DNA of 64,000 bases from Actinocatenispora thailandica. Its GTDB lineage: Bacteria > Actinomycetota > Actinomycetes > Mycobacteriales > Micromonosporaceae. The notes below the pieces were generated by a model. It made no database searches and was not told the DNA's origin. It saw only the letters and a list, made by a program, of their open reading frames with translations. Made by a program: the position numbers and the translations under genes. Below are positions 5,665-27,535 of the stretch, piece by piece; the stretch's first letter is position 1, and the number at the start of each line of letters is the position of its first letter. The stretch is from the NCBI RefSeq assembly GCF_016865425.1, contig NZ_AP023355.1, positions 4,276,198-4,340,197 on the forward strand. Direction: 5' to 3'.

Positions 5665-7071
5665 ATGGGTCAAGCGCCCCGCCACCTGGTTCCGTCGCGT
5701 TCGGCGGCGGACTACTTCGGCGCGCAGCTTCGGCACTGGCGACAACTGCGCGGGCTGTCCCAGCAGCAGCTCGGCCGCTTGACGTTGCACAGCGGCTCGC
5801 TGATCGGCAAGGTCGAGAAGGCCGAACGCACACCGCCGCCGGACCTGGCCCGCCGATGCGACGACGTCCTGCAGACCGGCGGTGCGCTGCAGCGCCTGGA
5901 CCCGCGGGCCAGCGTCGACGCCCAGCATGATCGCAACGCAGTCTCCGTCGTACTGTCCGAGGTTGGCCTTGCGTGGTCATCCGATCTGGCCGATACGGTG
6001 GAGGTCGCTGGTCAACTGTGGAGGGCGGACGTGGAACGGCGCAAAGTGGTGATCGGCGCGGCCTGGTCGGCCGCCGCGTTCGCCGCACCCGCCCGCGACT
6101 GGCTCGCCGCCTGGACCGAACCGAACCCGACGCGCGCCGACGGCCGGCGGGTGGGCGCGGCCGAGGTGGACGTCGTCTGGTCGATGTGCGGCACCTTCGC
6201 CAACCTCGATCACCAGCTCGGCGGCGGCCATGCCCGCACGACGCTCGCGCACTACCTGAACACCGCGGTACTGCCGATGCTCAAGGGCAGCTACAGCCAA
6301 CGCATCGGCACCCAGCTTCTGGCGGCTACCGCGCGGCTGTGCGACATCGGCGGGTTCATGGCCTTCGACTGCCGCCGACCCGGACTGGCGCAGCGCTACT
6401 ACATCCAGGCGCTGCGGCTGGCGAGAGACAGCGGCGACCGCAGCATCGGCGCGCACATCCTGGCCGACATGTCCATGCAGGCCCAGTACATGGGCGACGG
6501 ACGCGAAGCGCTGGCGCTGGCCCGAGCCGGCCAACGCACCGCACGCGACTGCGGATCGTCGCTGTCGATGGCCCGCTGCTGCGCCCTGGAAGCCCGCGCA
6601 CACGCGCTGCTCGGCGACGGCGGCTCGTGCGGCCAGGCCATGACCCGCGCGGAACGGGCCCTGACCGCGGCCACCGACGAGGAACCGTCCTGGGTCACGT
6701 TCTTCACCTCCGAACAACTCGCCGCGGAGTTCATGTACGCCGCGGGCGAGTTGGGACGACACGCTGACGTGCAGCGGTTCGCGCCCGCCGTCCTCGCGTC
6801 CTCGGCGGGCATGCAACGGCGCCTGGCCCTGGCGACCGCCACCCTCGCCTCCTCATACCTGCCGGGTGGCGGCGCCGGCAACCACACCGCGGACATCGAC
6901 CAAGCGTGCGAGGTCCTGCGCGCGGCCGTTCCGGTGGCTGCGACGCTCGCGAGCCCGCGGACGGTCAACATCCTGCACGCGGTCCGGGCTCAGCTTCGCG
7001 CCCACCGTTCCCGACCCGCCGTCGAGCAACTCGACAGCGAGATGGAGAGCGTGCTCGGTGCCGCATCCTGA
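5665..7071 (+). CDS. XRE-family helix-turn-helix regulator with TPR-like C-terminal region
   Basis: A 468-residue protein. Residues about 15-60 form an HTH_3 domain (FGAQLRHWRQLRGLSQQQLG, then LIGKVEKAERTPPPDLARRCD). The long C-terminal part is all helical, with TPR-like pairs such as AQRYYIQALRLARDSGD and DGREALALARAGQRTARDCG. This layout is common in actinomycete regulators that sense a ligand or peptide through the TPR part. The ATG is preceded by GAGGAG. The last 14 bases overlap the downstream phosphotransferase gene, so the two form an operon. Confidence 0.85.
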   Translation: MGQAPRHLVPSRSAADYFGAQLRHWRQLRGLSQQQLGRLTLHSGSLIGKVEKAERTPPPDLARRCDDVLQTGGALQRLDPRASVDAQHDRNAVSVVLSEVGLAWSSDLADTVEVAGQLWRADVERRKVVIGAAWSAAAFAAPARDWLAAWTEPNPTRADGRRVGAAEVDVVWSMCGTFANLDHQLGGGHARTTLAHYLNTAVLPMLKGSYSQRIGTQLLAATARLCDIGGFMAFDCRRPGLAQRYYIQALRLARDSGDRSIGAHILADMSMQAQYMGDGREALALARAGQRTARDCGSSLSMARCCALEARAHALLGDGGSCGQAMTRAERALTAATDEEPSWVTFFTSEQLAAEFMYAAGELGRHADVQRFAPAVLASSAGMQRRLALATATLASSYLPGGGAGNHTADIDQACEVLRAAVPVAATLASPRTVNILHAVRAQLRAHRSRPAVEQLDSEMESVLGAAS

Positions 7072-7993
7072 CCAGGCCATAGCGCCAGCCGCCGTCGACC
7101 TCGACACGACGCTCCGCAACGCTTGCGCCCTCCGTGGTGTCTCGGCCGACGGCGCGCGGCTGCTCCACCATTCCAGCAACGCGGTGTTCCACCTGCCGGC
7201 GGCCGACCTCGTCGCCCGGCTCACCCCCGGCGACGATGTCGGCGACCGGCTCCGCGCGACGCAGTGCATCACCCGCTGGCTGGCGACCGAGCAGGGTTTC
7301 CCCGCCACCAGGCCAGCAGACATCGGTCCCGTTGAAGACAAGGCCGCTACGGTCACCTTCTGGCGGTACTACCCGCAGCCCAGCCCGGCCCCGGATCCCA
7401 GCTCGGCAGACCTCGCCGGGCTGCTGCGCCGGCTGCATCACATCAACCAGGCGCCGCCGGCGACCCTGGATACCTGGGTACCGCTCGCGTCCCTGGACAC
7501 CGCACTTCACGACCGCACCATCAATGCCCCGCTGACCTCCGACGAACGACGCTGGCTCCTCGACGAGGTCAACCGCGTCCGCGACGACTGCTACAACCTG
7601 GACTATCCCCTCGATCAGGGGCTGATCCACGGCGACGCCTGGGCCGGCAACCTGCTGCGCGGCCACGACGGCTACCTGCTGGGCGACTGGGACTGGCTGG
7701 CCTGGGGCCCACGAGAGATCGACCTGATCCCCACCTGGCACGCCGCGACCCGCTACGGACGAGGCGCCGCCTGGTCCGCCGCCTTCGCTACGGAGTACGG
7801 CTACGACCTGTCGAACTGGCCCGGGTTCGCGTCCCTGCTCCACATGCGCGACCTGGTCCAGCTCACCGGCCCGCTTCGCCGCGCGGCGACCAGTGAACGC
7901 CATCGCCGCATGCTGCGTCAGCGTTTCGACGCGATCCGCGCCGGCGACCCCACGCCTTGGACCGCCTTCCAACCAGGCGCTGACACGACGTAG
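7058..7993 (+). CDS. aminoglycoside-phosphotransferase-family protein
   Basis: A 311-residue kinase-fold protein. The Brenner motif is intact (LIHGDAWAGNLL, about residue 188), followed by the metal-binding stretch LLGDWDWLAWGPREIDLIP in place of the usual DFG-like aspartate. The N-terminal lobe is reduced. The start is GTG at 7058, inside the last codons of the XRE gene. Such XRE-phosphotransferase pairs are frequent in actinomycetes; the substrate is unknown and need not be an antibiotic. The residues needed for phosphotransfer are present. Confidence 0.85.
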   Translation: MPHPDQAIAPAAVDLDTTLRNACALRGVSADGARLLHHSSNAVFHLPAADLVARLTPGDDVGDRLRATQCITRWLATEQGFPATRPADIGPVEDKAATVTFWRYYPQPSPAPDPSSADLAGLLRRLHHINQAPPATLDTWVPLASLDTALHDRTINAPLTSDERRWLLDEVNRVRDDCYNLDYPLDQGLIHGDAWAGNLLRGHDGYLLGDWDWLAWGPREIDLIPTWHAATRYGRGAAWSAAFATEYGYDLSNWPGFASLLHMRDLVQLTGPLRRAATSERHRRMLRQRFDAIRAGDPTPWTAFQPGADTT

Positions 7994-9447: not shown

Positions 9448-9840
9448 TTAGTTGGGTCTGGGGTTCTCCACCGTGAACCACCGGTTCCCGTACGTTGACG
9501 AGTCGTGGCCGTAGTGGCGGTCCTTGTACTGCTTAAGCGCTGCCTGCCATTGACTGAGGATGAGGACGGCGTCGCTGTTCTGCGGAAGGGTCTCCTCGTC
9601 GAGGATATCGACGAAGGCATAGCTGGGGTCCTTCTCAATGACCTTGCTGAGTTCCCCGAGGAGACGGTTGAGCATCTTGATCTTGAGAGCGTTGACGACG
9701 CCATCCTGCTTCTTTTTGGACAGCTCGGTCATCTCGCGGTGAGCGGCCTCCAGCATCGGAACAAGCCGGTCATAGGTCGCTGCCTGCTCGTCAGTTGGCG
9801 ACGGCGAGGAGCCGTCATTCGCCTTGTTGCGGCGGGGCAT
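9448..9840 (-). CDS. small helical partner of the nuclease-like gene (130 aa)
   Basis: Function not recognised. The protein is charged and helical: a polar N-terminus, then EAAHREMTELSKKKQDGVV and MLNRLLGELSKVIEKD as likely amphipathic helices, and an aromatic tail (WQAALKQYKDRHYG). It starts 9 bp after the stop of the larger upstream gene on the same strand, so the two are almost certainly one operon. Codon use is less GC-biased than in the flanking genes. It could be an adaptor, inhibitor or immunity partner of the nuclease. Confidence 0.7.
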   Translation of the reverse strand: MPRRNKANDGSSPSPTDEQAATYDRLVPMLEAAHREMTELSKKKQDGVVNALKIKMLNRLLGELSKVIEKDPSYAFVDILDEETLPQNSDAVLILSQWQAALKQYKDRHYGHDSSTYGNRWFTVENPRPN

Positions 9841-9849
9841 GGTTTTCTC

Positions 9850-11277
9850 CTACTTCGGGAGCCGGCGGGTGAACTCGACGTGCTTCTTGCGCAGAACCTC
9901 GATGGGGCGCCGTCCGGATTCGAGCAGAGCGACCATGAGATCGAGGTCAGAGTCGTCCAGGCACAGGACCGCGCAGCGCTTGGACGAGTGCAGATCGACG
10001 ATGTTGCGCTGGACGCTGGTCTTCGGCGGGTTGCGCGCGACAAGGGCCCCGAGGCGGCCCATGTCCTCATCATCTAGGTAGCGGTAGAGCTGGTTGACGT
10101 GCTCCGTATCGATCGCTGCAACGTTCTTGAGCTCAAAGACGAGCTGGCGCGCGCCGTACTGGTCCCGGAGATCAGTCAAGAACGGTGTCTTGCCGTCATT
10201 ATGGAAGATGATGTCTCGAATGTGAGCACCACTGATCGTTCGTTCCTGCTGGCCCGCGAGGTCGAGCTCGGGGTAGAGCACAGAGGACAGGACATCGAAC
10301 GCGAGCTCCTCGAACTTCTTGTCGGCTCCGTTCTCACGGCCAGTCGGCAGCGCCTTGATGTCCGAAACCTTCTTCTTGACGGTCGCGAGTTTGAGCGGCG
10401 TGAAGAGCGGGTCGGGGCCGCACACACCCGCTGCGGCCTCCCGCTCCGCGACGTAGCTGCGGACCGTGTCGAAGTGCGCGCGGTTGTAGGCGAGCACGTC
10501 TGGCTTGGCGATGATCTTGCCTGCGCGGGCCGGCGGAAGCACGAGCGGCGCATAGGCGGTGCGATAGTAGTCGCCGTAGTTGATCCAAGGCAGCCTGCGG
10601 AGCAGGTTCAGTGGCGCGAGCAGGACCGGCGAACCGTCGGAGGGGTTGTACGGAAGACGCGCGTCGAACGGTCGCCAGTCGAGCACTGCGGCGTCCCAGG
10701 TCAGAAGCGTGTGGCGGGCCATTGGGATGCCCCAGTCCTCGCAGCGGCGCTCCGTGAACTTGGAGAGCCAGCGCTTGATGACCGAGGCGGTCAGGTCGCT
10801 GATGCGGTCCTCGGCGATGCCGGGCACGAGCAGAGCGAGGACCTCTAGGTGATCTAGACCAGCGGCTTGGAGCTGCGGAACCTGCTGGAACGTACGGACA
10901 ATGCCTTCGATAGTGCCGGAGCCGAGCGCTGAACCCCGCTTGGTCCCGGAGGCATAGCCCAGCCCGAGCTCGACCGGCTCACTGACCTCTGACAAGAGCA
11001 TGCTCGCTCGCGTTCCCCGTCCTTCGACGGCGTGCTTGCGGACCTCGTCTACAAAGCTGAGCAGGGCGGCGTGAAGCCGTCGGTACTCCTGGTCATCAGA
11101 CTTCCAGAGCAGGAACGGGTCTAGGTAGAGCGGGAGGTCCTCGCGAAGATGGGGGACGACGAAGTCCACTTCGTCTTGCCTGATTACGAGGCCAAAGACA
11201 TCGCTCAGACGCGGATTGAAAATGCCGATGGAGCCGAACTTATTGCCATCCGCTGCCACGCCCCCACCTTTCGTCAC
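9850..11277 (-). CDS. probable PD-(D/E)XK nuclease-like protein (475 aa)
   Basis: The N-terminal 300 residues are unrecognised and contain LPLYLDPFLLWKSDDQEYRRL and a conserved-looking LTWDAAVLDWRPFDARLPYNP. The C-terminal 150 residues look like a restriction-endonuclease fold: FEELAFDVLSSVLYPELDL, then RDIIFHN with Asp near residue 354, then the strand QLVFELKNVA with Glu and Lys near 382-384 (D...ExK). A helical DTEHVNQLYRYLDDEDMGRLG follows. This spacing suits a PD-(D/E)XK active site. With its 130-residue partner it may form a defence module. The fold call is inferred by eye. Confidence 0.6.
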   Translation of the reverse strand: MTKGGGVAADGNKFGSIGIFNPRLSDVFGLVIRQDEVDFVVPHLREDLPLYLDPFLLWKSDDQEYRRLHAALLSFVDEVRKHAVEGRGTRASMLLSEVSEPVELGLGYASGTKRGSALGSGTIEGIVRTFQQVPQLQAAGLDHLEVLALLVPGIAEDRISDLTASVIKRWLSKFTERRCEDWGIPMARHTLLTWDAAVLDWRPFDARLPYNPSDGSPVLLAPLNLLRRLPWINYGDYYRTAYAPLVLPPARAGKIIAKPDVLAYNRAHFDTVRSYVAEREAAAGVCGPDPLFTPLKLATVKKKVSDIKALPTGRENGADKKFEELAFDVLSSVLYPELDLAGQQERTISGAHIRDIIFHNDGKTPFLTDLRDQYGARQLVFELKNVAAIDTEHVNQLYRYLDDEDMGRLGALVARNPPKTSVQRNIVDLHSSKRCAVLCLDDSDLDLMVALLESGRRPIEVLRKKHVEFTRRLPK

Positions 11278-11608
11278 TTCCCTGCGAGGCTACGCTAGGA
11301 GAGAGCTCCCGACATACCGGTGCGACCACCCACGCTCCCCGAGCCCGGCCCCGATTTCGGAGCTACGTACGTGTCCACTCACTTGCCACCAGGTAGTCGT
11401 GCCACCGCGCCGCCGGCTTCACTCCCGAGCGCGGCACATAGTCAGGACGCGTCGAGCGGAGGCGAGGGCGGCCGCAGGGCCGACCCTCCTTATCCTCCTG
11501 CCGCAGACGGCGCTCGCCAGCTGCCAGCTGCTGCCCGACAGATAAGAGGAGGCTCATCCGGTTTGAGGGTGTAGTTGTAGACATCGAAGCCTGGGAGGGT
11601 TCATCAGC
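11278..11608. other. 331-bp interval between nuclease gene and IS remnants
   Basis: No gene is supported. The left part is the upstream region of the minus-strand nuclease-like gene. The right part, from about 11530, is likely the left end of the IS3-type fragment whose orfA begins at 11609; its exact terminus cannot be fixed by eye. Confidence 0.4.
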
Positions 11609-11706
11609 ATGGCTGCACCGAAGAAGTATCCGGACGAGTTGCGTGAGCGGGCGACGCGGATGGCGGTGAAGGCGCGTCGGGATCCAGCGACCTCGACCGG
11701 CGCGAT
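11609..11706 (+). pseudogene. IS3-family orfA 5' fragment
   Basis: The read MAAPKKYPDELRERATRMAV followed by KARRDPATSTGA is the start of an IS3-family OrfA (helix-turn-helix protein) with a KKYP-type N-terminus. It is different from the MFAVPKPYPREF copies elsewhere in the window. After about 33 codons the reading becomes the antisense of an ISL3 transposase, so the fragment is joined directly to that element near 11695-11706. Confidence 0.6.
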
Positions 11707-12585
11707 GCGGGTCGCCTGTGCGGCCGCGGTGGCCGTGGATGCTCTGCTGGACGCGGCGGCGGCACTGGTCCATGGCGTCTCCGGCCAGGCGCACGACGTG
11801 GAACGGGTCCATGACCGCAGCGGCGTCGGGAAGCTGTTCTGTGGTCGCGGTCTTGAAAAAAGCCGGGTGAAGCCGTCCATCGCGACAACCTCCACGGCGT
11901 CGCGCCAGGTCTGTTCACGCTCGGCGAGCCAGGAGGCGAACACCTGTTTGGAGCGGCCGGCGACCATGTCCAGCAGCCTCGCCGTGCCGGTGCCGTCACG
12001 GATCGGGGTGAGATCGATGATCACGGTCACGTACTTGTCGCCGCGCCTGGTGTGGTGTCGCCACACGTGTTCATCGACGCCAATGACCTTCACGCCCTCG
12101 AAGCGGGCCGGGTCGTCGATCAGCACGCGCTTGCCCTCGGCCAGGACGGCGTCGTTGGCAGTGTCCCAGGCAACGTCCAACGCTTCAGCGATGCGGGCGA
12201 CGGTCAGGTGCTGCACCACGATGCCCTCCAGCGCCCACCGCAGCCCACGCCGTGACAGCTTCGCCCGCGGCTTCGCGGCCCGGGTGGTGTCTTGTCGCCA
12301 CACGTGCCCGCAGCCGGCGCAGCGGTAGCGGCGCACGGCGACCTCAAGGACCGTGGGGCGCCAGCCGAGCGGTTCGTGCGCGAGACGGCGGATCACGGTG
12401 TCACGCCCAATCCCTTCACCGCCACAGCGGCGGCACCCCTGATCGGCAGCCACGACTCGGCACGCAAGCACCGCACGATCAGGTTCCAGGCGTTGCCCGG
12501 TCACGACAAGGCCGAGTTCGTCGAGTCGGCAGAACGTGGTCAGGTCGGGACAGGCAAAGCCCACCCCGCGAGTAGCGTCAGACAC
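11695..12585 (-). pseudogene. ISL3-family transposase, N-terminal half with a frameshift
   Basis: The ORF begins MSDATRGVGFACPDL and carries the ISL3 zinc-finger-like region (CRRCGGEGIGRDT, then YRCAGCGHVWRQDT). The first DDE-type block follows (VIGVDEHVWRHHTRRGDKYVTV). At AMDGFT the frame breaks next to a run of six A on the plus strand (11856-11861). The correct reading resumes in another frame as MDPFHVVRLAGDAMDQCRRR and stops matching after GHRGRTGDP. Frameshift plus truncation make it inactive. Confidence 0.8.
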
Positions 12586-12696
12586 GTCGAGGTCTTCCAG
12601 ATGGCGAGCGTGAGAACTTCCATCCTCGGGAGACCTCGACGCCTATCCGAGGACCGCCACGCCGTGATCCCTACACCCCCATCTGGGAAGAGCCAG
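11695..12696 (-). mobile_element. ISL3-family element, 5' half only
   Basis: The transposase start and its upstream end are kept; the 3' half is absent. The probable terminal repeat reads GGCTCTTCCCAGATGGGGG on the minus strand, ending near 12696, as in actinomycete ISL3 elements. The other end is lost at the junction with an IS3 fragment near 11700. A separate ISL3 3' half lies at 22610-23028 in the opposite orientation. Confidence 0.65.
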
Positions 12697-12950
12697 ATAA
12701 GAGGGAAACCTACGCCCAGTGATCGTCAAGCAGTGACGAGCCGGCTCTCAGGGTCAAATATGGCCGTCATGGTGGCCCGGCTTGCTCCGCCCAACCACTG
12801 TCTCTGCTGCTGACTTCCATTGCAGGCCAAGCCGTATCTGATGCGTGCCGGGATGCGGACAACCGGGTCGTCCGCATCGGTCGTCTGGTGTGGGTGGCAT
12901 TGCCGATGGGTCAATGGTTTCAGTTTCAGCCGACGAGATGAGGCGGGACC

Positions 12951-14204
12951 ATGATCCGTTCGCAGGACGACGTGGGTGGCAGTTGTGTGGTCGTCGAGTC
13001 CGGTATCCCGGAGCCGACCGATCTCACGATCGTGGAACGTAAGGGCTGGGGACATCCGGACACGCTGGCCGATCATCTGGCCGAGCGCCTGTCGCGGGAG
13101 TACAGCACCTACACGATGGAGCACTTCGGTGGGGTGCTGCACCACAACTTCGACAAGCTTGCCCTGCTCGGCGGCCGTTCCGAGGTTCGGTACGGGTCGG
13201 GGCGGATGCTCCAGCCGGTCCGCGTGCTGGTGAACGGCCGCGCCACCGGAATCTGCGGCGGCGAGCTGATCCCGGTGGACGAGATGGTCGTCGCGGCGAC
13301 GAAGGCATTCTTCCACGAGCGGCTGCCAATGCTGGACGCCAACCTGCGCATCGAACTGAACATCACGAACAATCCCAGCCCGGGCGCCGTGGTCACCGAC
13401 GGCGGAGTCGCGCCGGAGCGCTCGTCCTGGTTCGCGCCCCGATCCCTGGAGGACCTGCGGGAGCGGCGGGTGCTGCTGGCCAACGACACGTCGCTGGGCA
13501 CCGGCTGGGCGCCGGAGAGCCCGTACGAGACGTTCATCCGTGACCTGGTCGACCACCTGTCCGGGCCGAACGGGTTCCGGCAGGACCACCCGTGGTGTGG
13601 CTCGGACGTCAAGTTGATGGGGTACGCGGCGCGCGATGTGCTCGACATCGTGCTGTGCGTGCCGCAGCTGTCCGCGCACGTTGCTGATCTCGGCCAGTAC
13701 CTGGCCAACAAGCAGAGGATCCTGGCCGAGTGCCGGCGCTGGGCCTCGTCCCGGTGGCCGCAGCTGGAGGCGCGGTTCCGGCTCAACGTGCGCGACGTGC
13801 CGGACCGAGACGAGCTGTATCTGACGCATACCGGCAGCTCGATCGAGTCCGGCGACGAGGGTGTGGTTGGGCGCGGTAACCGGGTCAACGGTTTGATCAC
13901 GCCGCTGCGGCCGATGAACGTGGAGGGCGCCAACGGCAAGAACCCCGTCTACCACGTCGGGAAACTGTACAACCTGGCCGCGCGGCAGATCGCGCAACGA
14001 CTGCACGAGGCCACCGGCGGGTACGCCGAGGTGCATCTGGTCAGCGCGACCGGGCTGCGGCTGGCCCGGCCGTGGCGGATCCTGGTACGGCTGACCGCCG
14101 CCGAGGTGCTGGCGGAGAAGGTGCACGCCGAGGTGTTCGACGTGCTGGACGACTTCCCGGCGCTGACCCGCCGCATCCTCACCACCGATCTGGTGCTGAG
14201 CTGA
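12951..14204 (+). CDS. archaeal-type S-adenosylmethionine synthetase (methionine adenosyltransferase)
   Basis: A 417-residue protein of the archaeal MAT family (AdoMet_Synthase), not the usual bacterial MetK. Key stretches are ERKGWGHPDTLADHLAERLS (about residues 29-48), HHNFDKLALLGGRS, a GNRVNGLITPLRPMNVEGANGKNP block and VHLVSATGLRLARPW. These match the ATP/methionine site regions of that family. It should make SAM from ATP and methionine. AGGCGGGACC precedes the ATG. It heads a six-gene operon and its stop overlaps the next ATG by one base. A host would normally carry another MetK, so this copy is probably pathway-specific. Confidence 0.88.
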   Translation: MIRSQDDVGGSCVVVESGIPEPTDLTIVERKGWGHPDTLADHLAERLSREYSTYTMEHFGGVLHHNFDKLALLGGRSEVRYGSGRMLQPVRVLVNGRATGICGGELIPVDEMVVAATKAFFHERLPMLDANLRIELNITNNPSPGAVVTDGGVAPERSSWFAPRSLEDLRERRVLLANDTSLGTGWAPESPYETFIRDLVDHLSGPNGFRQDHPWCGSDVKLMGYAARDVLDIVLCVPQLSAHVADLGQYLANKQRILAECRRWASSRWPQLEARFRLNVRDVPDRDELYLTHTGSSIESGDEGVVGRGNRVNGLITPLRPMNVEGANGKNPVYHVGKLYNLAARQIAQRLHEATGGYAEVHLVSATGLRLARPWRILVRLTAAEVLAEKVHAEVFDVLDDFPALTRRILTTDLVLS

Positions 14205-15103
14205 TGGACGCCGCCACCCTGGGGTCGGTGCCGGCCGGGTGCCGCCGCCGGCTCCTGGACCACTACGGCATGGCGGTGCGGCCGTGGCTGGGAGCCGTGC
14301 CCGGCATGCTGGCCGAGGCGGTGCGGCGCTGGGGTGTGCAGTTGTCTCGCTATCACGATGCCGGCTGCGCGTCGGTGCTGGCGGTCGGTTCGCTGCGCGG
14401 CCAGCCCGTGATCGTCAAGGCGTGGTACAGCCCGCAACGCTACGTCCGTGAGCTCGCCGCGTTACGCGCTTGGGCGCCGGCCGCGCCACGCTTGTTCGCT
14501 ACCGCGCCGGACCTGCACATAGCGGCGATGGCACTGGTTGGTGGCCGGCCGGGCGGCGCACTCCGCCCAGCACAGGAGGAGCAGGCGGTGGCCGCGTCAC
14601 TGGCCGCCCTGCATCACGATAGCCCGGTCCCAGAGCATCTGCCGCGACTGCGCCAATACATCGACGACACGGTACGGCCCCGCATCCATCGGCGCCGCAG
14701 CCTCGGCGCCGACATCCCGCCGCAGTACCTGACCACGATTGATCGCACCGCCTCCACTGGTTCGTCGCCGGTGCTGCTGCATGGCGACCTGTACCAGGAC
14801 AACGTGCCGTTCTCCGCATCCGGGCAGCCGGTGTTCCTCGATCCGCTGCCGATGGTCGGCACGCCGGCGTTCGACTGGGCGTTCTGGACCGTCTACTACC
14901 GGCTGGGCCGGCACACCGTCTCCCGACTGCATCTGGCGGCGGACGCAAGCCGGCTCCCGCTTGCCGAACTCGTTCCGTGGTGTCTGCTGCTGTGCGTCGA
15001 CGGGCTGCTCTACTACCGCGACAGCGGCGATCGTCGCGCGCCGGTGATGGCCGCGGTCATGCACGAGGTGGCCGACTACGACCGGCAGGGCGCGTCATGG
15101 TGA
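14204..15103 (+). CDS. phosphotransferase (APH-like kinase) of the SAM/SerRS operon
   Basis: A 299-residue APH/choline-kinase-like protein. The catalytic loop is VLLHGDLYQDNVPF (about residues 188-201) and the metal-binding block is VFLDPLPMVGTPAFDWAFW. An N-lobe lysine is likely in PVIVKAWYSPQRYVREL. The substrate is unknown; the neighbouring histidine phosphatase may act on the same phosphate. The ATG overlaps the metK-like stop by one base, and its own stop overlaps the phosphatase gene by 7 bp. Confidence 0.85.
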   Translation: MDAATLGSVPAGCRRRLLDHYGMAVRPWLGAVPGMLAEAVRRWGVQLSRYHDAGCASVLAVGSLRGQPVIVKAWYSPQRYVRELAALRAWAPAAPRLFATAPDLHIAAMALVGGRPGGALRPAQEEQAVAASLAALHHDSPVPEHLPRLRQYIDDTVRPRIHRRRSLGADIPPQYLTTIDRTASTGSSPVLLHGDLYQDNVPFSASGQPVFLDPLPMVGTPAFDWAFWTVYYRLGRHTVSRLHLAADASRLPLAELVPWCLLLCVDGLLYYRDSGDRRAPVMAAVMHEVADYDRQGASW

Positions 15104-15768
15104 CCTACGTGCTGCGCCACGGCCGCACCGCCTACAGCGCCAGCTACCGCGTCAACGGCGATCCGCAGATCCCGGTTTATCTCGACCGTACGGGCCGTGT
15201 CCAGTGCCGCGAGGCGCGCGACACGCTGCCGCCCCAGACCCTCGCCTCGTGCGTAAGCAGCCCCTTCCCCCGCGCCATCCAAACGGCACGGCTGCTGACT
15301 GCGGACCGGCCGCCCGACATCCAGGTCGACCCCAGCCTCGGCGAGATCGACTACGGCGAGTTCGAAGGCGGACCGTTCACCGCCTACGCCCGCTGGCTGA
15401 CCAGCCATGGCCCACACGCCAGGCCGGCCGGCGCCGGAGAGTCGCAACACGAAGCGCTCACCCGGATGCTGCGGGGGCTACGGCGTTGCCTCCAGCTACC
15501 CGGCCCCCGGCTGGTGGTTACCCATGGCCTGCTGTTGTCCGTGCTCGCCGCCAGGCGCCTGGACGGCCACGTGTGCTTCCCCGAAGCGCTCTATGCGACC
15601 CCGCGCCTCTATTCCGACCATGACCTGACCCAGGTACTCGACCGCCTCCTCGGCGAACTCGCAGCCTGCCCGGCCGACTCCTCGTTACTGCCGGTGAGAG
15701 AGCCGGGCCAGCTTGATACCTTCGGCCCGACATCCGCGCATCCGGAGGAAGAGGACGCTCATGCATGA
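15097..15768 (+). CDS. histidine phosphatase (phosphoglycerate-mutase-like) superfamily protein
   Basis: A 223-residue protein. The catalytic RHG motif is at the very N-terminus (VTYVLRHGRTAYSA). The second conserved region is SSPFPRAIQTARLL, the acid/base block is EIDYGEFEGG, and the C-terminal histidine is in LVVTHGLLLSVLAARR. This is a complete phosphatase-type active site. In this operon it could remove a phosphate put on by the preceding kinase or release an intermediate. Both ends overlap neighbouring genes. Confidence 0.85.
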   Translation: MVTYVLRHGRTAYSASYRVNGDPQIPVYLDRTGRVQCREARDTLPPQTLASCVSSPFPRAIQTARLLTADRPPDIQVDPSLGEIDYGEFEGGPFTAYARWLTSHGPHARPAGAGESQHEALTRMLRGLRRCLQLPGPRLVVTHGLLLSVLAARRLDGHVCFPEALYATPRLYSDHDLTQVLDRLLGELAACPADSSLLPVREPGQLDTFGPTSAHPEEEDAHA

Positions 15769-17053
15769 TCCACGCGCGCTGCTGGACGCCGAGACCGACG
15801 CCGTGCGCCGGCTCGCCCGCCGCGGCTACACCCTCGACGTGTCCGCGCTGGAGGATCTGCTGTCTCGGCGCAACAAGACCATCCAGTCGGTCGACGAGAT
15901 GCGCGCGGAATCCAACCAGGTCGCCAAACAGGTCCCCCAGGTCGCCCGCGCCGGCGGCGACGCCACCGAGCTCAAGGACCGGGCGCGGCAGCTGAAGGAA
16001 GAGATCCGCGACCGGGAAGAGGAACAGGAGCGCCTCAACGCCGAGCTGCGCGAGCTGCTGCTGTCGGTACCGAACCTGCCGCTGGACAAGGCGCCCGACG
16101 GCGACTCCGACGAGTTCGCCGTCGAGGTCCGCCGGCACGGCACTCCCCCGGCGTTCCCGTTCGAGCCCAAGGACCACGTCTCGCTTGGTGAGGCGATGGG
16201 CATCCTGGACTTCGGCCGCGCCACCAAGCTGTCTGGCCCCCGGTTCAGCGTCGCCCGCGGCGCCGGCGCCGCGTTGGAACGCGCGCTGGCGACCCTGTTC
16301 CTCGACCTGCACACCCGCCAGCACGGCTACACCGAGTACTCGGTGCCCACCCTGGTCACCCGCGAGACGATGACCGGCACCGGGCAGCTACCGAAGTTCG
16401 AAGAGGACCTGTTCAAGACCCGTACCGGCGACCGCGACCTCTACCTCGTACCCACCGCCGAGGTACCGCTGACCAACCTGCACGCCGGCGAGATCATCGA
16501 CCCCGCGAAGCTCCCGCTCGCCTTCACCGCGCAGACCCCCTGCTACCGCTCCGAAGCCGGCTCGTACGGCCGCGACACCCGCGGCCTGATCCGGCTGCAC
16601 CAGTTCGCCAAGGTCGAGATGGTGCGGCTGTGCCAGCCCGAGGACTCCCAGGTGCAGCTGGCGGCGATGGTCGAACACGCCGAAGCCTGCCTGGCCGCCC
16701 TCGACCTCGCCTACCGGGTGGTGCTGCTGCCGGCCGGGGACATGGGCTTCTCCGCGCAGCTCACCTACGACCTGGAGGTCTGGCTGCCCGGCCAGAGCCG
16801 CTACCGGGAGATCTCCTCGGTCTCCGACTGCGGCACCTTCCAGGGCCGCCGCGCGAACATCCGCACCCGCGACGCCGACGGCAAGCGCCGCTTCGTCGCC
16901 ACCCTCAACGGCTCCGGCCTGCCGATCGGCCGCACCCTGGCCGCCGTACTCGAACAGCACCAGCGCCAGGACGGCTCGGTCGTGCTGCCCGAAACACTCG
17001 CCCACCACACCGGTTTCCGGGTCATCCAACCCGATGGGACACCCCAGGAGTAG
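15761..17053 (+). CDS. serS: seryl-tRNA synthetase, complete, inside a biosynthesis-like operon
   Basis: A 430-residue class II synthetase. The N-terminal tRNA-binding coiled coil covers about residues 30-105 (two antiparallel charged helices). The serine site TAEVPLTNLH is present. Motif 2 is CYRSEAGSYGRDTRGLIRLH, and motif 3 is NGSGLPIGRTLAAVLEQ. It should charge tRNA-Ser. All catalytic elements are intact, so it is not a decayed paralogue. Location between a phosphatase and a glycosyltransferase, with a 8-bp overlap upstream, argues for a dedicated or second SerRS supplying seryl-tRNA or seryl-adenylate to a pathway, as known for VlmL in valanimycin synthesis. Start chosen at ATG after GGAGGAAGAGG. 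Confidence 0.92.
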   Translation: MHDPRALLDAETDAVRRLARRGYTLDVSALEDLLSRRNKTIQSVDEMRAESNQVAKQVPQVARAGGDATELKDRARQLKEEIRDREEEQERLNAELRELLLSVPNLPLDKAPDGDSDEFAVEVRRHGTPPAFPFEPKDHVSLGEAMGILDFGRATKLSGPRFSVARGAGAALERALATLFLDLHTRQHGYTEYSVPTLVTRETMTGTGQLPKFEEDLFKTRTGDRDLYLVPTAEVPLTNLHAGEIIDPAKLPLAFTAQTPCYRSEAGSYGRDTRGLIRLHQFAKVEMVRLCQPEDSQVQLAAMVEHAEACLAALDLAYRVVLLPAGDMGFSAQLTYDLEVWLPGQSRYREISSVSDCGTFQGRRANIRTRDADGKRRFVATLNGSGLPIGRTLAAVLEQHQRQDGSVVLPETLAHHTGFRVIQPDGTPQE

Positions 17054-17056
17054 CTC

Positions 17057-18073
17057 ATGCTCGTCGGCGTCTGCGACTTCCCCTCCGCCTACGACTTCCC
17101 GCCCGCCGGATACGGCGGCATCGAACGATGGCTGTGGGCGGTCGCGATCGGAGCCCGACGCTCCGGCGCCGACGTGCACCTGCTCGGCCCCCAGTGGCGC
17201 ACCGACCTCCACGGCTGGACCGTCCGCCCGTACCGGCTGGAAGACCTCGACCCGCACGGCGCCACAGTGGCCGGGCTGCGCGCCGACCGCTACGACCTAC
17301 TGATCGTCGGACACGAGTACCCGTCGCTGCCGCGCTGGCGCGAGGTCGCCGACCGGCTCGGCTGCGACGTGGCCACCTTCCAACACGACCCGCGATTCCA
17401 GCACGCCGCCGACGCCTTCAACGGGCGCCAGCGGCGGCTGTACTGCTACAGCCCGGAGATGTCCGCCCGCTACGTCGCGCATCACCCCGCGCCCGAGCTC
17501 GCGGTGCACCTGGGCCACGGCGAGCAGGAACCCGCCGCCGTCACCGGCACCGACCTGGTGTGGCTGGGCCGCATCGACCGGCAGAAGGCGCCGCACCTCG
17601 CCGCCCAGGCAGCCGGGCTGTTGGGCCGCCGGATCCGCATCGTCGGACCGATCTTCGACCCCGGGTACGTCGACGAGCATCGCGACGTGTTCGCGGCCGA
17701 CCATGTCGAGATGGTCGGGGAACTCGGCGGGGCAGCGAAGACCGCCGCGTTCGCGCACGGTTCCGTGTTCGTGTACACGTGTGCCCGCGACTACGTCGAA
17801 GCCGGCGCCGCGGTCTTCGGCGAAGCGCTGCGCGCCGGGACCCCGGTCGCCGCGCTGACCTGGCGACCCGGTACCTGCGCCGACGCCGCCCTGTGCCCCA
17901 AAACCGGCCGCATCGCCACCGTCACCCCGGAAACCACCGACGCCGAAGCAGCACACGCCCTCGCCGACGCGATCGAGGACGCCATCCCCTTGGATCCTCG
18001 CACCGTCCAGGACACCGGTCAGGCACGCTTCGACCCGGACCGACACTTCCAGGCGCTCGCCTCGCGGCCATGA
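17057..18073 (+). CDS. GT-B glycosyltransferase (GT4-like)
   Basis: A 338-residue protein. The N-terminal Rossmann-like half opens with VCDFPSAYDF and the acceptor-side loop GYGGIERWLWAVA. The C-terminal half has TDLVWLGRIDRQKAPHLAAQAA, typical of the GT4 donor domain, and GEALRAGTPVAALTWRPG containing the EX7E-like region. No signal peptide is present. It starts 3 bp after serS and its stop overlaps the next ATG as ATGA. It probably transfers a sugar from a nucleotide donor to the operon's product; the acceptor is unknown. Confidence 0.82.
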   Translation: MLVGVCDFPSAYDFPPAGYGGIERWLWAVAIGARRSGADVHLLGPQWRTDLHGWTVRPYRLEDLDPHGATVAGLRADRYDLLIVGHEYPSLPRWREVADRLGCDVATFQHDPRFQHAADAFNGRQRRLYCYSPEMSARYVAHHPAPELAVHLGHGEQEPAAVTGTDLVWLGRIDRQKAPHLAAQAAGLLGRRIRIVGPIFDPGYVDEHRDVFAADHVEMVGELGGAAKTAAFAHGSVFVYTCARDYVEAGAAVFGEALRAGTPVAALTWRPGTCADAALCPKTGRIATVTPETTDAEAAHALADAIEDAIPLDPRTVQDTGQARFDPDRHFQALASRP

Positions 18074-19122
18074 CCCCCGACTTCGCCGGCGAGCTGCTAC
18101 CCGCCCTCCGCAAGACCTTCGGGCCGCGCTGGAACATCGACACCGACGGCGATCGCTTCCACATCCACCACCAGGATGCGGGCTCGCCCTACCGGCCGCC
18201 CCGCCGCCCACCGGACTGGCCCGAGCTGCTGGAACGCCTCGAAGCGGGGTTCGCGCGTCAAGGTGTACCCCGGGTTCCGCCGTTGCCGCTGCGCTGGGGC
18301 CGCGACACCGACTTCACCATCTCCGCCGTCCAGGCCCTCGACCCCTACCTCAAGCACGCCAAGCCCTACACCTACGGGCAGGGCTACCTCCCGCAGCCGG
18401 TCATCCGCTTCACCGGCAAACGTGACCAGCAGGGCCAGCTGTTCGACGGGTTCGCCACCTCGTTCGTCAACGTCTCCCGCGTCCAACCCATCCACGACGT
18501 CACCGAACACGCCGAGATCATCGACGGCTGGCTCAGCATCCTGTCCAGTCTCGGCATCCACGCCCGCCACATCGACATCACCGGCCGCACCAGCACCTGG
18601 ACCCGCGGACCCGTCAGCGGCATCACCCTGCACATCAGCCACGCCACCATCCCGATCGGCGACACCGTACTGCTTTGGAACACCGCCAACCCCGACCACC
18701 TCGCCACCGACCTGGGCTCCGGCCTTGAACGCCTCCGCTGGACCATCACCCGACAACCCTGGACCGACCTGCTCCACGGCCCCTTCGCCCACCACCACGA
18801 CCCGGCCACGCTCGACGCCCTCCGCACCGCCACCCTCGCCCTCGCGAACGGCATCCACCCCGCCTCCCACGGCCCCGGCAACGCCATCCGCCGCCTCCTC
18901 CGCACCGTCCCAAGCGGCGTCGCCGATCTCGGCCTCAGCCGGGTCGTCCGCCACTGGCACAGCTACTGGTCCCTCACCGGCGGCGCCCAACACACCTGGG
19001 CAACTGTGACCACCGCGCTCGAGGATGAACTGGCTTCTGTGCTCCGCGAAACCGCGCCTCGACCCCGTTCTGCCGCACATGAACCAATTGCTCACAGTGC
19101 AGCAAAATCGATCAAACAGTAG
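18070..19122 (+). CDS. uncharacterised protein with possible class II aaRS-like (AlaRS-like) core
   Basis: A 350-residue protein of unproven function, last in the operon and coupled by ATGA overlap. Its middle reads like parts of an alanyl-tRNA synthetase catalytic core: PYTYGQGYLPQPVIRFTGK, FDGFATSFVNVSRVQPI, a helix EHAEIIDGWLSILSSLGI, and a motif-3-like DLGSGLERLRW near residue 220. The editing and C-Ala regions are absent. It could be a tRNA-synthetase-derived ligase or sensor. The resemblance is faint and seen only by eye. Confidence 0.6.
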   Translation: MTPDFAGELLPALRKTFGPRWNIDTDGDRFHIHHQDAGSPYRPPRRPPDWPELLERLEAGFARQGVPRVPPLPLRWGRDTDFTISAVQALDPYLKHAKPYTYGQGYLPQPVIRFTGKRDQQGQLFDGFATSFVNVSRVQPIHDVTEHAEIIDGWLSILSSLGIHARHIDITGRTSTWTRGPVSGITLHISHATIPIGDTVLLWNTANPDHLATDLGSGLERLRWTITRQPWTDLLHGPFAHHHDPATLDALRTATLALANGIHPASHGPGNAIRRLLRTVPSGVADLGLSRVVRHWHSYWSLTGGAQHTWATVTTALEDELASVLRETAPRPRSAAHEPIAHSAAKSIKQ

Positions 19123-21370: not shown

Positions 21371-22260
21371 TCAGGCCGCGTGTGCGGTGGTGTAGATGGT
21401 CTCAAACTCGATCGGGGTCAGCCGGCCGAGGCGGGCTTGACGACGCCGGCGGTGGTAGGTGGCTTCGATCCAGGTCACGATCGCCAGCCTCAGCTGGTGA
21501 CGGGTGGCCCAGCGGCGGCGGTTGAGCACGTTCTTCTGCAGCAGCGCGAAGAACGACTCCATCGCGGCGTTGTCGCCGCAGGCACCGACCCGTCCCATCG
21601 ACCCGGTCAGCCCGGCCTGGTGCAGCGTGGTGACGTATTTCCGGGACCGGAACTGGCTGCCGCGATCGGAATGCACAATCGTGTGGTCCGGGCAACGCAG
21701 CCCGATGGCGTGCCGCAGCGCGGCGACCGCCAGCTCAGAGGTCATCCGAGAGTCGATGGAGTAGCCACGATCCGGTTGGACCACAGGTCCTTGATCGCGC
21801 ACAGATACAGCTTGCCCTCGGCGGTGGGATGCTCGGTGATATCGGTCAGCCACACCCTGTTGGGTGCCGCAGCGGTGAAGTCCCTGCCGCCGCCTGGCCG
21901 TTTGATCAGGTCGTCATGCACCGGCGGACCGGGCCTGCGGCCCAGACCGCGTTTGACCGAGTGGGCGCAGATGATCCGCTGGTCGCGGCACAGCCGCCAT
22001 ACCCGGTTGTCGCTGGCGTGGTGGCCGGCGGCGCGGAGCTGGTCGGCGACCAGCCGGTAGCCGAACTCCGGGTCATCGGCGTGCGCATCGAGTGCGGCGT
22101 TGGTCAGCCACGCATCCTGGTAGTCACGCTGCGAGACCGGCTCACGCACCCACTGGTAGTAGCCCTGCCGGGAGAAGCCCAGCACCCGACACGTCACCGC
22201 GACCGGCACCCGAACAGGGGCGCCGGCCGCGGCCAACTCTCGGACGAGCGGGTAGATCAT
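21371..22260 (-). pseudogene. IS3-family orfB transposase, broken by a 1-nt deletion
   Basis: The product begins MIYPLVREL and keeps the DDE integrase blocks: WLTDITEH (first Asp), IVHSDRGSQF (second Asp) and NAAMESFFALLQKN (Glu). The frame is lost at SNRIV, near 21765, where copy 2 has ATCGTCGGC and this copy has one C fewer. The last third continues in another frame to the normal end ETIYTTAHAA. The ATG overlaps orfA's stop as ATGA. Confidence 0.88.
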
Positions 22261-22550
22261 TTTGGGTTGATGTCCCGGGCCAGATAGGCAGCCGCACGCC
22301 GCAGGACCTCGTTCTCCTGCTCCAGCAGCCGGTTGCGGCGCTTGAGCTCCCGCAGCTCCTGCGACTCCTCGCGGGTCACGCCGGGCCGGTTGCCGTCGGC
22401 AACATCGGCCGCTTTCAGCCAGTTGGACAGACACGACTCCGAGATCCCGAAGTCCTTCGCGATCTGCGTCAGCGGCGCGCCGCCGGCACGGGCGACCGCG
22501 ACCACGTTGTCCCGAAACTCGCGGGGATAGGGCTTGGGCACAGCAAACAT
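22257..22550 (-). CDS. IS3-family OrfA (copy 1)
   Basis: A 97-residue DNA-binding protein. It has the helix-turn-helix PLTQIAKDFGISESCLSNWL at about residues 27-46 and a C-terminal leucine-zipper-like helix (LRELKRRNRLLEQENEVLRR) that mediates OrfA/OrfAB dimers. It appears intact. The run CCCAAAA at its end is the same as in copy 2 and could permit a -1 frameshift into orfB. Confidence 0.9.
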   Translation of the reverse strand: MFAVPKPYPREFRDNVVAVARAGGAPLTQIAKDFGISESCLSNWLKAADVADGNRPGVTREESQELRELKRRNRLLEQENEVLRRAAAYLARDINPK

Positions 22551-24195: not shown

Positions 24196-24597
24196 TCAAG
24201 GGAGATCCTCAAAATACCGCGCGACATCATAGTTGGCTATAAGTCTGGCCAGCCCCACGGGCGTCTGACCTGATCTGTTAACAAGGAATGGATCTGCACC
24301 ACGTGATCGAAGAAGTGAAATAAGCTCACCTCGGCCTTTCGAATTGAATACTGCCACAAATAGAGGGCCGTTGCCGTACTTGTTCGTCAAATTTACGTCC
24401 GCGCCAGCATCGAGGAGCAGTCGCGCCGCCTCCACTTGATGCTCTTGTGCGGCAAGATGCAGCGGTGTAAATCCGTCTCGATCTGGGCTGTCAGGGTCGA
24501 CGTGCGATGCGAGGAGGGACCGCAGTTCGCTGGTCGCTCCCTCGAGACTTGCGTAATGCAGCGCCCCTCGGCCCAGCTTGTCGCTATGGCTGCTCAT
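24196..24597 (-). CDS. ankyrin-repeat immunity protein for the RHS toxin
   Basis: A 133-residue protein made almost wholly of ankyrin repeats: LHYASLEGATSELRSLL, then FTPLHLAAQEHQVEAARLLLDAGADVN, PLFVAVFNSKGRGELISLLRSRGADP and a final QTPVGLARLIANYDVARYF. It begins 14 bp inside the end of the toxin tip gene, the usual place for the cognate immunity gene of a polymorphic toxin. Ankyrin proteins are a known immunity class for HNH/EndoVII-like toxins. It should bind and block the GH-E nuclease in the producing cell. Base composition is less GC-rich than its surroundings, consistent with a horizontally acquired tip/immunity cassette. Confidence 0.85.
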   Translation of the reverse strand: MSSHSDKLGRGALHYASLEGATSELRSLLASHVDPDSPDRDGFTPLHLAAQEHQVEAARLLLDAGADVNLTNKYGNGPLFVAVFNSKGRGELISLLRSRGADPFLVNRSGQTPVGLARLIANYDVARYFEDLP

Positions 24598-26250
24598 ATT
24601 TGTGGCTCATATTATTCGCGGGATCCTCAATCTGATAATGTTCGGGATCGTTCTCATACTCAATGAATTCATCCCGAGTCCAATTGTCACTCTCGGCCAT
24701 TTCCCTGTTTCGCCAGAACTCATATCCCGGCTTGTGTCCGTAATGAAATGGACCCGTCTTAGGGACAGATTGCCCAGTGTTGGGATCGATGTAGTTTCCG
24801 GAGCTATCTTTGGGAGCTTTCGCCTGAATTTTACCCTTCGTGTCTGCCCTGAGTTTAACACGCCCATACCGATTAGCTCCATTGACCTTTTCGGGATTGG
24901 TCTTGAATCGGCCATTGCTATCCCGCGCTTGTCTGGGATTGCTCGCTGGAGGGCTGTCCGCTTCAGTTCCGGGCTGCTGCCCGTCCTCAGCGCTCGCCTC
25001 GTTGGCGTCGTTTGCATCGAGATCACTGAGGTGTTCATTTAGTTCTTGGGCTTCTCGGACTTCTTGGGCGTGCTCGGCGGCCCTGGCGTCGTACGTGTCG
25101 GTGGACTCGCTTCCGGTGTCGGCGTGCGCGCCGTCGTCGCTAGTGGGGTACCTGGGTTTTCTGGTGTCGCCGCCGCCGTGCTCGCTGGTCTGGTTGCTTG
25201 GATCGTTTTCCCAGAGTTGTCGTTCCTTGAAATCTTCGGTCGCACTGTCGTAGTAACGGCCTTGTTCTGCTTCCCAGCTTTCGGGCGGATCTTCGCCGGC
25301 GCGTTCACCAGCGTCGTCGCGGCTGCGTTCGTCGGAGTCGTCTCTGCCGAAGTCGTCGCCGCTCTTGTCGATGTAGTCGCCACCACCTCCGCCGCCTTCG
25401 TTGAGTATTTCGAGGCCGCTGGGGTCGCTGTGGGTGGTGGGGTTGTTGCCGGCGTAGTCGTAGCCGCCGAGCTGGGTGGGGTCGCCGGCTTCTAGGAGCG
25501 GGTCTGGGGAGAGGAATCGGCCGGTGGTGGGGTCGTATTGGCGGGCGCCGAGGTTGTCCAGGCCGGTGGTGGCGTCGGGAGTGCCGGCGACGTAGCCATT
25601 GTCGCCGGGCCAGGCGCCGGGCGTGACACCGCGAGCCTCGCCGAACGGCTTGTATTGGCGGCGGGTGACGGCTTGGCCGTTGTCGTTGATGGCGAGTTGG
25701 TCGGTGCCTTGCCGATCGGGGATCAGTTCGTACCAGGTGCTGGCCGAGGTGCGGACGGCGACGGTGGTGTCGTTGATGCTGTAGTAGCGGCTGCCGGTCA
25801 CAGCGCCGGTGGTGGTGTTGAGGGTGAGTTGTTCGTCCCCGATGAACAGGGTGGTGGTGCCGGGGTCCCGTCGTACGGCAAGGTTGCCGTCGGCGTCGTA
25901 GACGTAGCTGGTTTGCCCGGCGCCGGTGGTGTCGGTGGCGAGTTGGTCAAGGCTGTTCCAGGTCAGTGTCTGGTCGCCGTGGGCGCCACCGATGACCGAG
26001 GTGGTGTTGCCGGCCGCATCGTAGGCGTAGGAGCCGGTCTGGGTGCTCGCGTCGGGGCCGGTGGCCGAGGTGGATGCCAGTGTGTCGGGCTGATCGGCGG
26101 CCGAGCCCTGGGTGGGGTAGGTGTAACTGGTGGTCGTGTCGCCGGTCGTCTGGCCGGTGGTGTCGTGGTCGGTCTGTGTAGCGCGGTTCCCGGCGGCGTT
26201 GAAACTCCAGGACTGCCAGTAGGGCTCCGGACCGCCCACCATCGTCGAGT
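24584..26250 (-). pseudogene. RHS polymorphic toxin, C-terminal part with GH-E nuclease tip (severed by IS)
   Basis: This is the 3' piece of the RHS gene. After the IS junction it reads STMVGGPEPYWQSW, then YD repeats and the RHS-core end (YDYAGNNPTTHSDPSGLEIL). Next comes a polar linker of about 170 residues and the toxin tip. The tip has YGHKPGYEFWRNREMAES, then WTRDEFIEYENDPEHYQIED and NNMSHKYEQP at the end. The Gly-His and Glu pattern fits the GH-E family of HNH/EndoVII-fold nucleases. It now lacks the secretion signal. Joined to 27536-32363 it restores a continuous 2,164-residue protein. Confidence 0.88.
26248..26250. repeat. 3-bp target-site duplication AGT (left copy)
   Basis: AGT flanks the IS3 copy 2 at 26248-26250 and again at 27533-27535. 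Three bases is the usual IS3-family duplication size and shows that the insertion was a simple transposition. Confidence 0.85.
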
Positions 26251-26309
26251 GGGACTGCCCAGGGTTTGGTTGACACCTGATCTGTGAGGCTGCTGGCCTT
26301 GCTGGAAGG

Positions 26310-26603
26310 ATGTTTGCTGTGCCCAAGCCCTATCCCCGTGAGTTTCGGGACAATGTGGTCGCCGTCGCCCGTGCCGGCGGCGCGCCGTTGACGCAGATCG
26401 CGAAAGACTTCGGGATCTCCGAGTCGTGCTTGTCCAACTGGCTGCGTGCCGCGGACGTGGAAGACGGCCAACGTCCGGGAGTGACCCGCGAGGAGTCCGA
26501 ACAGCTGCGTGAGGCGAAGAAGCGGATCCGGCTGTTGGAGCAGGAAAACGAGGTCCTGCGCCGGGCCGCTGCCTATCTGGCCCGGGACATCAACCCAAAA
26601 TGA
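26310..26603 (+). CDS. IS3-family OrfA (copy 2)
   Basis: A 97-residue protein with MFAVPKPYPREFRDNVV, a helix-turn-helix (PLTQIAKDFGISESCLSNWL) and a C-terminal zipper helix. It differs from copy 1 at several residues (for example RAADVEDGQRPGV), so the two copies are diverged relatives rather than a recent duplication. It ends with a TGA overlapping the orfB ATG, at the CCCAAAA slip site. Confidence 0.92.
   Translation: MFAVPKPYPREFRDNVVAVARAGGAPLTQIAKDFGISESCLSNWLRAADVEDGQRPGVTREESEQLREAKKRIRLLEQENEVLRRAAAYLARDINPK
26594..26600 (+). promoter_or_regulatory. likely -1 ribosomal frameshift site between IS3 orfA and orfB
   Basis: C CCA AAA, in the orfA frame, has the X XXY YYZ slip form and lies right before the orfA stop. 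Slipping by -1 leads into the orfB frame and would give a fused OrfAB transposase, as is usual in the IS3 family. Plain ATGA coupling is the alternative. Confidence 0.5.
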
Positions 26604-27490: not shown

Positions 27491-27535
27491 CACCCGCCAA
27501 CCCCGAGTGTCAAACAAACTCGGGGCAGTCCCAGT

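Follow-up and report, generated by a model that had tools for sequence, protein, structure and literature searches.

In albomycin biosynthesis, the seryl-tRNA synthetase (SerRS) AbmK appears to supply seryl-adenylate, which the aminoacyl-tRNA-synthetase-type (aaRS-type) enzyme AbmF condenses with an aminonucleoside; AbmK (SerRS2) also confers immunity (PMC9032320). In ascamycin biosynthesis, AcmF, a truncated alanyl-tRNA-synthetase-like (AlaRS-like) protein, takes Ala, Gly or Ser off tRNA(Ala) and passes it to a nucleoside sulfamate, the latter being modelled in the former adenylate site; AcmF apparently exerts no tRNA selection, and most of its ATP-binding residues are reportedly gone (PMC12945691). 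Here, we describe a six-gene operon of Actinocatenispora thailandica, located at positions 12951–19122 of a 64,000-nt stretch of its genome (the whole stretch is called the window below), in which a private SerRS and a second aaRS-type enzyme stand together, as they do in the albomycin cluster. The six genes are a conserved unit, and on balance we lean towards reading them as a self-contained biosynthesis of a small molecule bearing a sugar, a seryl group and, probably, an adenosyl unit derived from S-adenosylmethionine (SAM) or ATP.

The operon and its conservation

The six genes are as follows:

12951..14204, + strand: archaeal-type methionine adenosyltransferase (MAT), 417 aa (PF01941, 7.1e-93)
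14204..15103, + strand: small-molecule kinase resembling APH and fructosamine kinases (PF03881, 1.5e-7; PF01636 (APH), 2.5e-6)
15097..15768, + strand: histidine phosphatase, branch 1, with an LRHG motif (PF00300 (His_Phos_1), 7e-26)
15761..17053, + strand: complete SerRS (TIGR00414 (serS), 4.1e-137; PF02403 and PF00587)
17057..18073, + strand: GT4-like glycosyltransferase (GT) (PF00534 (Glycos_transf_1), 8.7e-5, under the Pfam cut-off)
18070..19122, + strand: truncated AlaRS-like protein, 350 aa, called P6 below (PF01411, 3.1e-3; hhalign, AlphaFold2 (AF2) model and Foldseek)

All six open reading frames (ORFs) are present in the order given by the original prediction, and the tight coupling that it described is seen in overlaps of 1, 7, 8 and 4 bp and a single 3-bp gap between the SerRS and GT genes. 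It had also named no pathway with this set, and no description of the set was found in the openly accessible literature; one may have appeared earlier in a subscription journal, most of which lie outside it.

The set recurs in other genomes, as was shown by genome searches from three of its proteins; these scored the first few candidates per genome, so the absences reported are soft. First of all, a MAT scan of species genomes gave four loci at 65–68% identity (L017, Saccharomonospora; L018, a Pseudonocardiaceae metagenome-assembled genome (MAG); L019, Nocardia camponoti; L020, a Micromonosporaceae MAG). GT, P6 and SerRS are present at all four, the phosphatase at three and the kinase at three, with gene order partly shuffled; P6 of L017 is split across two frames, and the contig of L020 ends 39 aa into its SerRS. 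Secondly, a SerRS search of 394 class genomes gave 15 at E ≤ 1e-115. Beyond A. thailandica itself, G954 and G1043 hold the exact six-gene order and G878 and G933 have all but the kinase, and in the other ten the set is not near that SerRS (1.5 kb on each side being covered in G849 and G836). Thirdly, full-length P6 was found in 22 of 295 genomes of genus g88, where six of the 22 matches cross one stop codon near the model end, probably the natural stop, and the remaining 45 genomes with a match hold AlaRS pieces by frame length, except G1300. When 21 loci were picked by P6 alone (G954 left out), all six genes stood in window order in 20, the best pieces being short for the GT in L136 and L151 and for the MAT in L149; the exception, G1357 (L139), has P6 only.

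The four-gene core of MAT, SerRS, GT and P6 is therefore counted at 29 loci (the window, L017–L020, L080, L081, L082, L098 and these 20), and the exact window order at 23 of them (the window, L080, L081 and the 20). Identity to the window proteins is 64–68% for MAT, 60–73% for SerRS, 60–67% for GT, 48–52% for P6, 42–53% for the phosphatase and 37–46% for the kinase. In the six gene trees, L080, L081, L082 and L098 cluster where present (support 92–100) and L017 pairs with L018 where both are present, and L019 joins them in no more than two trees, those of SerRS and the phosphatase; pairwise distance correlations between the six genes are 0.66–0.93, which, for related sequences, are descriptive only. 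In wider samples the set is rare: P6 was found in 1 of 200 genomes of the order, with two further matches being a chance match and an AlaRS; MAT matched in 9 of 397 genomes of the order, at least 60% identity being reached only by that of the window and a 39-aa scrap; and among 396 genomes of the phylum the P6 of the window was the sole full-length one, most of the 147 matching genomes holding AlaRS pieces.

In L017, the phosphatase and SerRS lie in a single open frame (11242–13242) with no intervening stop, and are possibly fused.

P6, SerRS, MAT and the other enzymes

The sixth protein, taken as an orphan in the original prediction, proved to be AlaRS-like by profile, by AF2 model and by fold search. 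Plain sequence searches gave a Pfam match to PF01411 below cut-off (E 0.0031, residues 249–291), two AlaRS chains in the PDB at E 0.55 and no match in NCBIfam. When a profile of six P6 homologues was aligned by hhalign with a small AlaRS N-terminal alignment, this single comparison gave a probability of 96% and an E of 3e-9, and the alignment ran from motif 1 through motif 3 to the start of the tRNA-recognition domain. The AF2 model, built from five sequences, has a predicted local distance difference test score (pLDDT) of 83 and a predicted template modelling score (pTM) of 0.80, with the five models ranging from 53 to 83. In a Foldseek search of the PDB with this model, ranks 1–12 are all AlaRS, the top match being 3wqy (AlaRS with tRNA(Ala), E 2.8e-10); with TM scores of 0.63–0.68 over the query and a root-mean-square deviation of 6–7 Å, the resemblance of the predicted fold to AlaRS is clear, not close. 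That is to say, P6 is a truncated AlaRS-like protein made of the catalytic core and the start of tRNA recognition, and it ends before the rest of the AlaRS tRNA-recognition, editing and C-terminal parts.

Among nine P6 homologues, the motif-2 Arg, the [TS]SFVN strand, the pocket Trp, the pocket/motif-3 Asp and the motif-3 Arg are kept in all (9/9), and the pocket Asn in 7/9; the AlaRS Asn that we take to read G3:U70 of tRNA-Ala is kept in none (0/9). Like AcmF, P6 is truncated, without the editing and C-terminal domains, and it lacks the Asn for G3:U70, where AcmF lacks the reading pair. Two differences also appear: in AcmF, Q and E replace the N and D of AlaRS, whereas P6 keeps D in 9/9 and N in 7/9; and the partner of AcmF is an AlaRS (AcmD), whereas that of P6 is a SerRS in the loci examined. 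Of the ATP contacts, the two mapped in P6, the motif-2 and motif-3 Arg, are kept in 9/9. None of the ascamycin sulfamate genes is among the six. To AbmF, P6 is likened by role and gene setting, not by sequence. Albomycin needs pyridoxal phosphate (PLP) enzymes, a radical SAM enzyme, a non-ribosomal peptide synthetase (NRPS) and carbamoyl and methyl transferases, none of which the six genes encode; nor do the six include genes for a thionucleoside (PLP transaldolase, epimerase, radical SAM), the flanks being annotated in part.

Some candidates for P6 were rejected: L006 is a chance match, L007 lies within a 994-aa frame and was taken as an ordinary AlaRS, and L036 (847–2031) and L039 (856–2022) encode short AlaRS whose AlaRS pocket is complete. 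The last two are stand-alone proteins of 388–394 aa from genus g88, and their genomes also hold a full-length AlaRS.

The SerRS has both the N-terminal tRNA-binding arm and the class II core, and its profile matches the SerRS structure 2dq3 at 1.5e-166. Since the genome holds another SerRS, 42% identical, at a different site, the operon SerRS is an extra copy, and the private character that the original prediction ascribed to both SerRS and MAT stands. Two SerRS above the TIGR00414 cut-off are also found in each of the operon genomes G878, G933, G954 and G1043. In a tree of small sampling, the operon SerRS groups with VlmL-type SerRS (a label based on VlmB-like and DUF2156 neighbour genes) as well as with the SerRS that family f99 has in single copy; this group, whose inner branches are often weak, is split with support 94 from the host housekeeping SerRS and two gammaproteobacterial SerRS. 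In each of the five f99 genomes covered (G807, G788, G836, G822 and G849; e.g., L083, L088 and L099), the operon-like SerRS is the only one above the cut-off and seems to have taken the place of the housekeeping enzyme. DUF2156 is annotated near the SerRS on the Streptomyces plasmids L055 and L056.

The parallel with valanimycin, drawn by the original prediction, thus holds for one half only: VlmL is likewise a dedicated SerRS of the same broad clade (PMC9379638), but neither VlmA (DUF2156) nor VlmH is among the six genes. Since P6 is AlaRS-like and the valanimycin transferase family DUF2156 is absent from the six, albomycin and ascamycin are the closer precedents.

The MAT profile matches the MAT structure 4hpv at 3.9e-84 with the catalytic motifs retained. 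The genome contains a single archaeal-type MAT, that of the operon, and one bacterial-type MetK at another site, so the operon MAT is an extra copy and not a housekeeping one. A comparison of 29 MATs gave the subfamily motifs TGSSIESGDEG and EG..GKNPVYH, which also occur in MATs from other biosynthetic-looking clusters. MATs with TGSSIESGDEG lie on two Streptomyces plasmids and one Megaera plasmid near sugar isomerase, oxidoreductase and NUDIX genes, with a carbamoyltransferase as well on the two Streptomyces plasmids; around the MAT relatives of four plasmids (Megaera and three Streptomyces), no P6, SerRS or homologous GT was found within 19–25 kb. In L021 (Candidatus Megaera, a Rickettsiales plasmid), a MAT of this subfamily, 48% identical, is neighboured by a xylose-isomerase-like gene, several oxidoreductases, a bisphosphate nucleotidase and a histidine phosphatase, possibly as another MAT-based pathway.

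The families of the kinase and GT rest on weaker matches than those of MAT, phosphatase and SerRS. In the kinase, the motifs HxDLYxxN and F[LI]DP are conserved in an alignment of four homologues. The GT has the signature GYGGIERWLW, GHEYPS and YCYS, and a profile of six homologues matches the glycosyltransferase structure 2iuy at 3.8e-15 and a tetrahydrobiopterin glucosyltransferase at 1e-11. The nearest NCBIfam model of the phosphatase is alpha-ribazole phosphatase, under the cut-off of that model.

Far relatives and surroundings

In G1300 (L140), a related eight-gene run is followed by a BTAD (SARP-type) regulator: MAT (46%), an ORF of no family, a UDP-GlcNAc 2-epimerase, a histidine phosphatase (46%), a GMC oxidoreductase, a GT4, a divergent SerRS (37%) and a P6-like protein (30%) that retains SSFVN and the pocket Asp and has lost the Asn and Trp. 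This setting is typical of secondary metabolism, of which it is the strongest sign. The P6-like protein (9585–10775) begins with a zinc-ribbon-like Cys stretch absent from the P6 of the window. Upstream lies what seems to be an NRPS-type cluster of its own; a 389-aa ORF (2502–3668) has no Pfam family, and the ORF at 2843–3721, also of no family, was set aside as a probable shadow. In addition, a 3.2-kb, 30%-GC contig of G766, from the same phylum, holds a gene resembling P6 (E 7e-15) and a GT homologue (E 4e-51), separated by a single gene that is peptidase-like by eye, so the P6-GT pair extends beyond the six-gene operon; that genome is fragmentary, and the contig may be a contaminant.

Among 22 same-order loci, the gene immediately upstream of MAT, on its strand, is of the APH family in 10 (three checked in Pfam, all APH), a regulator family is common to 9 (two checked, both HTH_31), and a NUDIX gene is near 6 (one checked). 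No methyltransferase is among the annotated conserved neighbour families, i.e., those in more than four loci (APH, XRE regulator, relaxase and NUDIX). Apart from regulators, the window and five earlier loci have no further neighbour family in common. About 6 kb upstream of the operon, with other genes between, the window has

5665..7071, + strand: XRE-type HTH_31 regulator (PF13560, 5e-11)

which is 29% similar over 194 aa to the operon-adjacent regulator of L020 and does not match the regulator family of the 9 loci, so that its belonging to the operon is only suggested. A second APH-family kinase (6866–7993) adjoins it, with no similarity to the compared APH genes upstream of MAT in other loci.

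The A. thailandica genome is a single contig of 7.43 Mb. With a GC content of 70.1% against 69.4% for the window, the operon is not foreign in base composition. A simple consensus scan gave no promoter- or terminator-like sites around it, and no tRNA genes were found in the window or in L017–L020. Insertion-sequence genes flank the operon, namely an ISL3-type transposase immediately upstream (11554–12585) and integrase-core/HTH_21 genes downstream (21742–22434 and 26600–27490); the region 24587–32363 resembles a polymorphic-toxin locus, as it encodes an RHS-repeat protein of 1617 aa and a protein with a GH-E (HNH/Endo VII) nuclease domain. PLSDB plasmids gave no relative of P6 or GT, and none was confirmed in IMG/VR pattern scans. 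A role in defence was rejected, as PADLOC matched the SerRS weakly and the other five genes not at all.

Proposed pathway and its alternatives

The proposal starts from the gene content, the coupling, the conservation as a unit, the non-housekeeping MAT and SerRS, and the AlaRS-like P6 with its kept active-site residues, as established above; from these we infer the reactions, the acceptor, the order of steps and the self-protection. MAT would make SAM or a 5′-adenosyl derivative, most simply as a building block and not as a methyl donor, since no methyltransferase is among the six genes. The GT would attach a sugar to the scaffold, and the kinase and histidine phosphatase would put on and take off a protecting or activating phosphate. 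The private SerRS would activate serine, and either donor form, Ser-AMP or Ser-tRNA, may fit. P6, proposed as a seryl transferase or ligase, is by its likeness to AlaRS the probable user of the seryl group inside the operon; it would move this group to the acceptor, and the pocket that once took ATP and alanine could have room for a nucleoside together with a small amino acid. With that pocket, no Asn for reading tRNA(Ala) and a seryl supplier next to it, P6 would by analogy fit the logic of albomycin and ascamycin. In addition, SerRS may protect the producer if the product mimics seryl-adenylate, a proposed counterpart of albomycin, in which the seryl group is joined to a nucleoside and SerRS doubles as immunity (PMC9032320).

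In this way, the original prediction is partly supported as a whole: a seryl-dependent, glycosylated small molecule agrees with the operon content and its conservation, but a methylated or aminocarboxypropylated one finds no methyltransferase, either among the six genes or among the annotated conserved neighbours.

Several points weigh against this pathway. No kinase was found near L019, L082 and L098 and no phosphatase in L018; therefore, neither is indispensable, or each is supplied from elsewhere. MAT, keeping its catalytic motifs, might just supply SAM to enzymes elsewhere. The AlaRS residue roles are mapped onto P6 through the alignment and not through coordinates, and the GT4 of L140 shows no detectable similarity to the GT of the window. 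P6 could activate its own amino acid and bypass the output of SerRS, because its class II Arg residues are kept, whereas AcmF reportedly lost most ATP-binding residues. Moreover, no metabolite has been tied to the operon so far, and Pfam gave no transporter among the six genes.

Such self-activation by P6 is part of the first alternative, rather improbable in our judgement, in which SerRS is only an immunity copy against a product that inhibits the housekeeping SerRS, and P6 itself adenylates and attaches Ala, Gly or Ser independently of tRNA and SerRS; the relation of MshC of mycothiol biosynthesis to CysRS is the model for such a tRNA-independent ligase. The kept motif-2 and motif-3 Arg and amino-acid pocket of P6 speak for it. 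So do the decayed copies in which SerRS is the gene left nearly whole: G338 has a MAT scrap fused to SerRS (394 aa) with a tRNA-Ala gene adjoining, G971 has SerRS and pieces of P6, and G917, possibly a further case, has SerRS alone. However, G971 and G917 were found via SerRS (G338 via MAT), so the survival of SerRS in them is partly a search effect; G917, perhaps a decayed copy, may never have had the operon; and G1357 retained P6 without SerRS or any other operon gene. The immunity given by SerRS2 of albomycin also speaks for this alternative, but in albomycin that single SerRS does both jobs (PMC9032320).

A more specific version of the biosynthetic reading concerns adenomycin, which holds serine and sulfate. 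In its structure, the adenosine C5′ oxygen is joined to L-chiro-inositol bearing L-gulosamine (PMC6540904). No adenomycin gene cluster was found in the literature searches, and the link to the operon is a chemical guess. In a minimal adenomycin-like route, which we hold to be doubtful, the MAT-like enzyme would be an adenosyl transferase linking a cyclitol or sugar to adenosine C5′, with ATP as the direct source or SAM as an intermediate, the GT would add a sugar, the kinase and phosphatase would act as in mycothiol biosynthesis, and SerRS and P6 would set a serine cap. Such a route would account for all six genes; the expected sulfotransferase and cyclitol genes are absent, in Pfam searches, from the six and from the tested ORFs beside L140, several of which gave no family. 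If true, it would be a new route to 5′-ether nucleosides, and its acyl transferase, derived from AlaRS, would be one reserved for serine.

A protective or redox cofactor that stays inside the cell and is built in the manner of mycothiol is a fainter prospect still. In mycothiol biosynthesis, MshA, MshA2 and MshC are a GT4, a phosphatase and an aaRS-derived enzyme, and a GT4 acting on a phosphorylated acceptor, a phosphatase and an aaRS-derived ligase would be their parallels here; the lack of a transporter among the six genes also suits a product kept in the cell. However, MshC is related to class I CysRS, whereas P6 is class II AlaRS-like, and the operon MAT and SerRS have no mycothiol counterpart. 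The operon is also sporadic (4 of 393 class genomes besides its own, and P6 in 22 of 295 genomes of one genus); this distribution, the decayed copies and the SARP-type regulator at the related cluster L140 are more typical of secondary metabolism. Finally, a stress or back-up translation operon, with a spare SerRS, a SAM synthetase and accessory enzymes but no pathway, is very improbable: the SerRS does look fully active and is the only above-cut-off type in the five f99 genomes, but this reading does not explain why 23 of 29 loci keep, in one order, a GT, a kinase and a phosphatase along with a truncated AlaRS-like protein.

Read as the biosynthesis of a seryl-bearing small molecule, the operon is a testable and portable pathway, whose marker gene, P6, occurs in 22 of the 295 genomes sampled from a single actinomycete genus and can be used to trace related clusters. 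It would widen the small set of known aaRS-derived acyl transferases, and it leads us to expect a metabolite bearing serine, with seryl-tRNA synthetase as a possible target.

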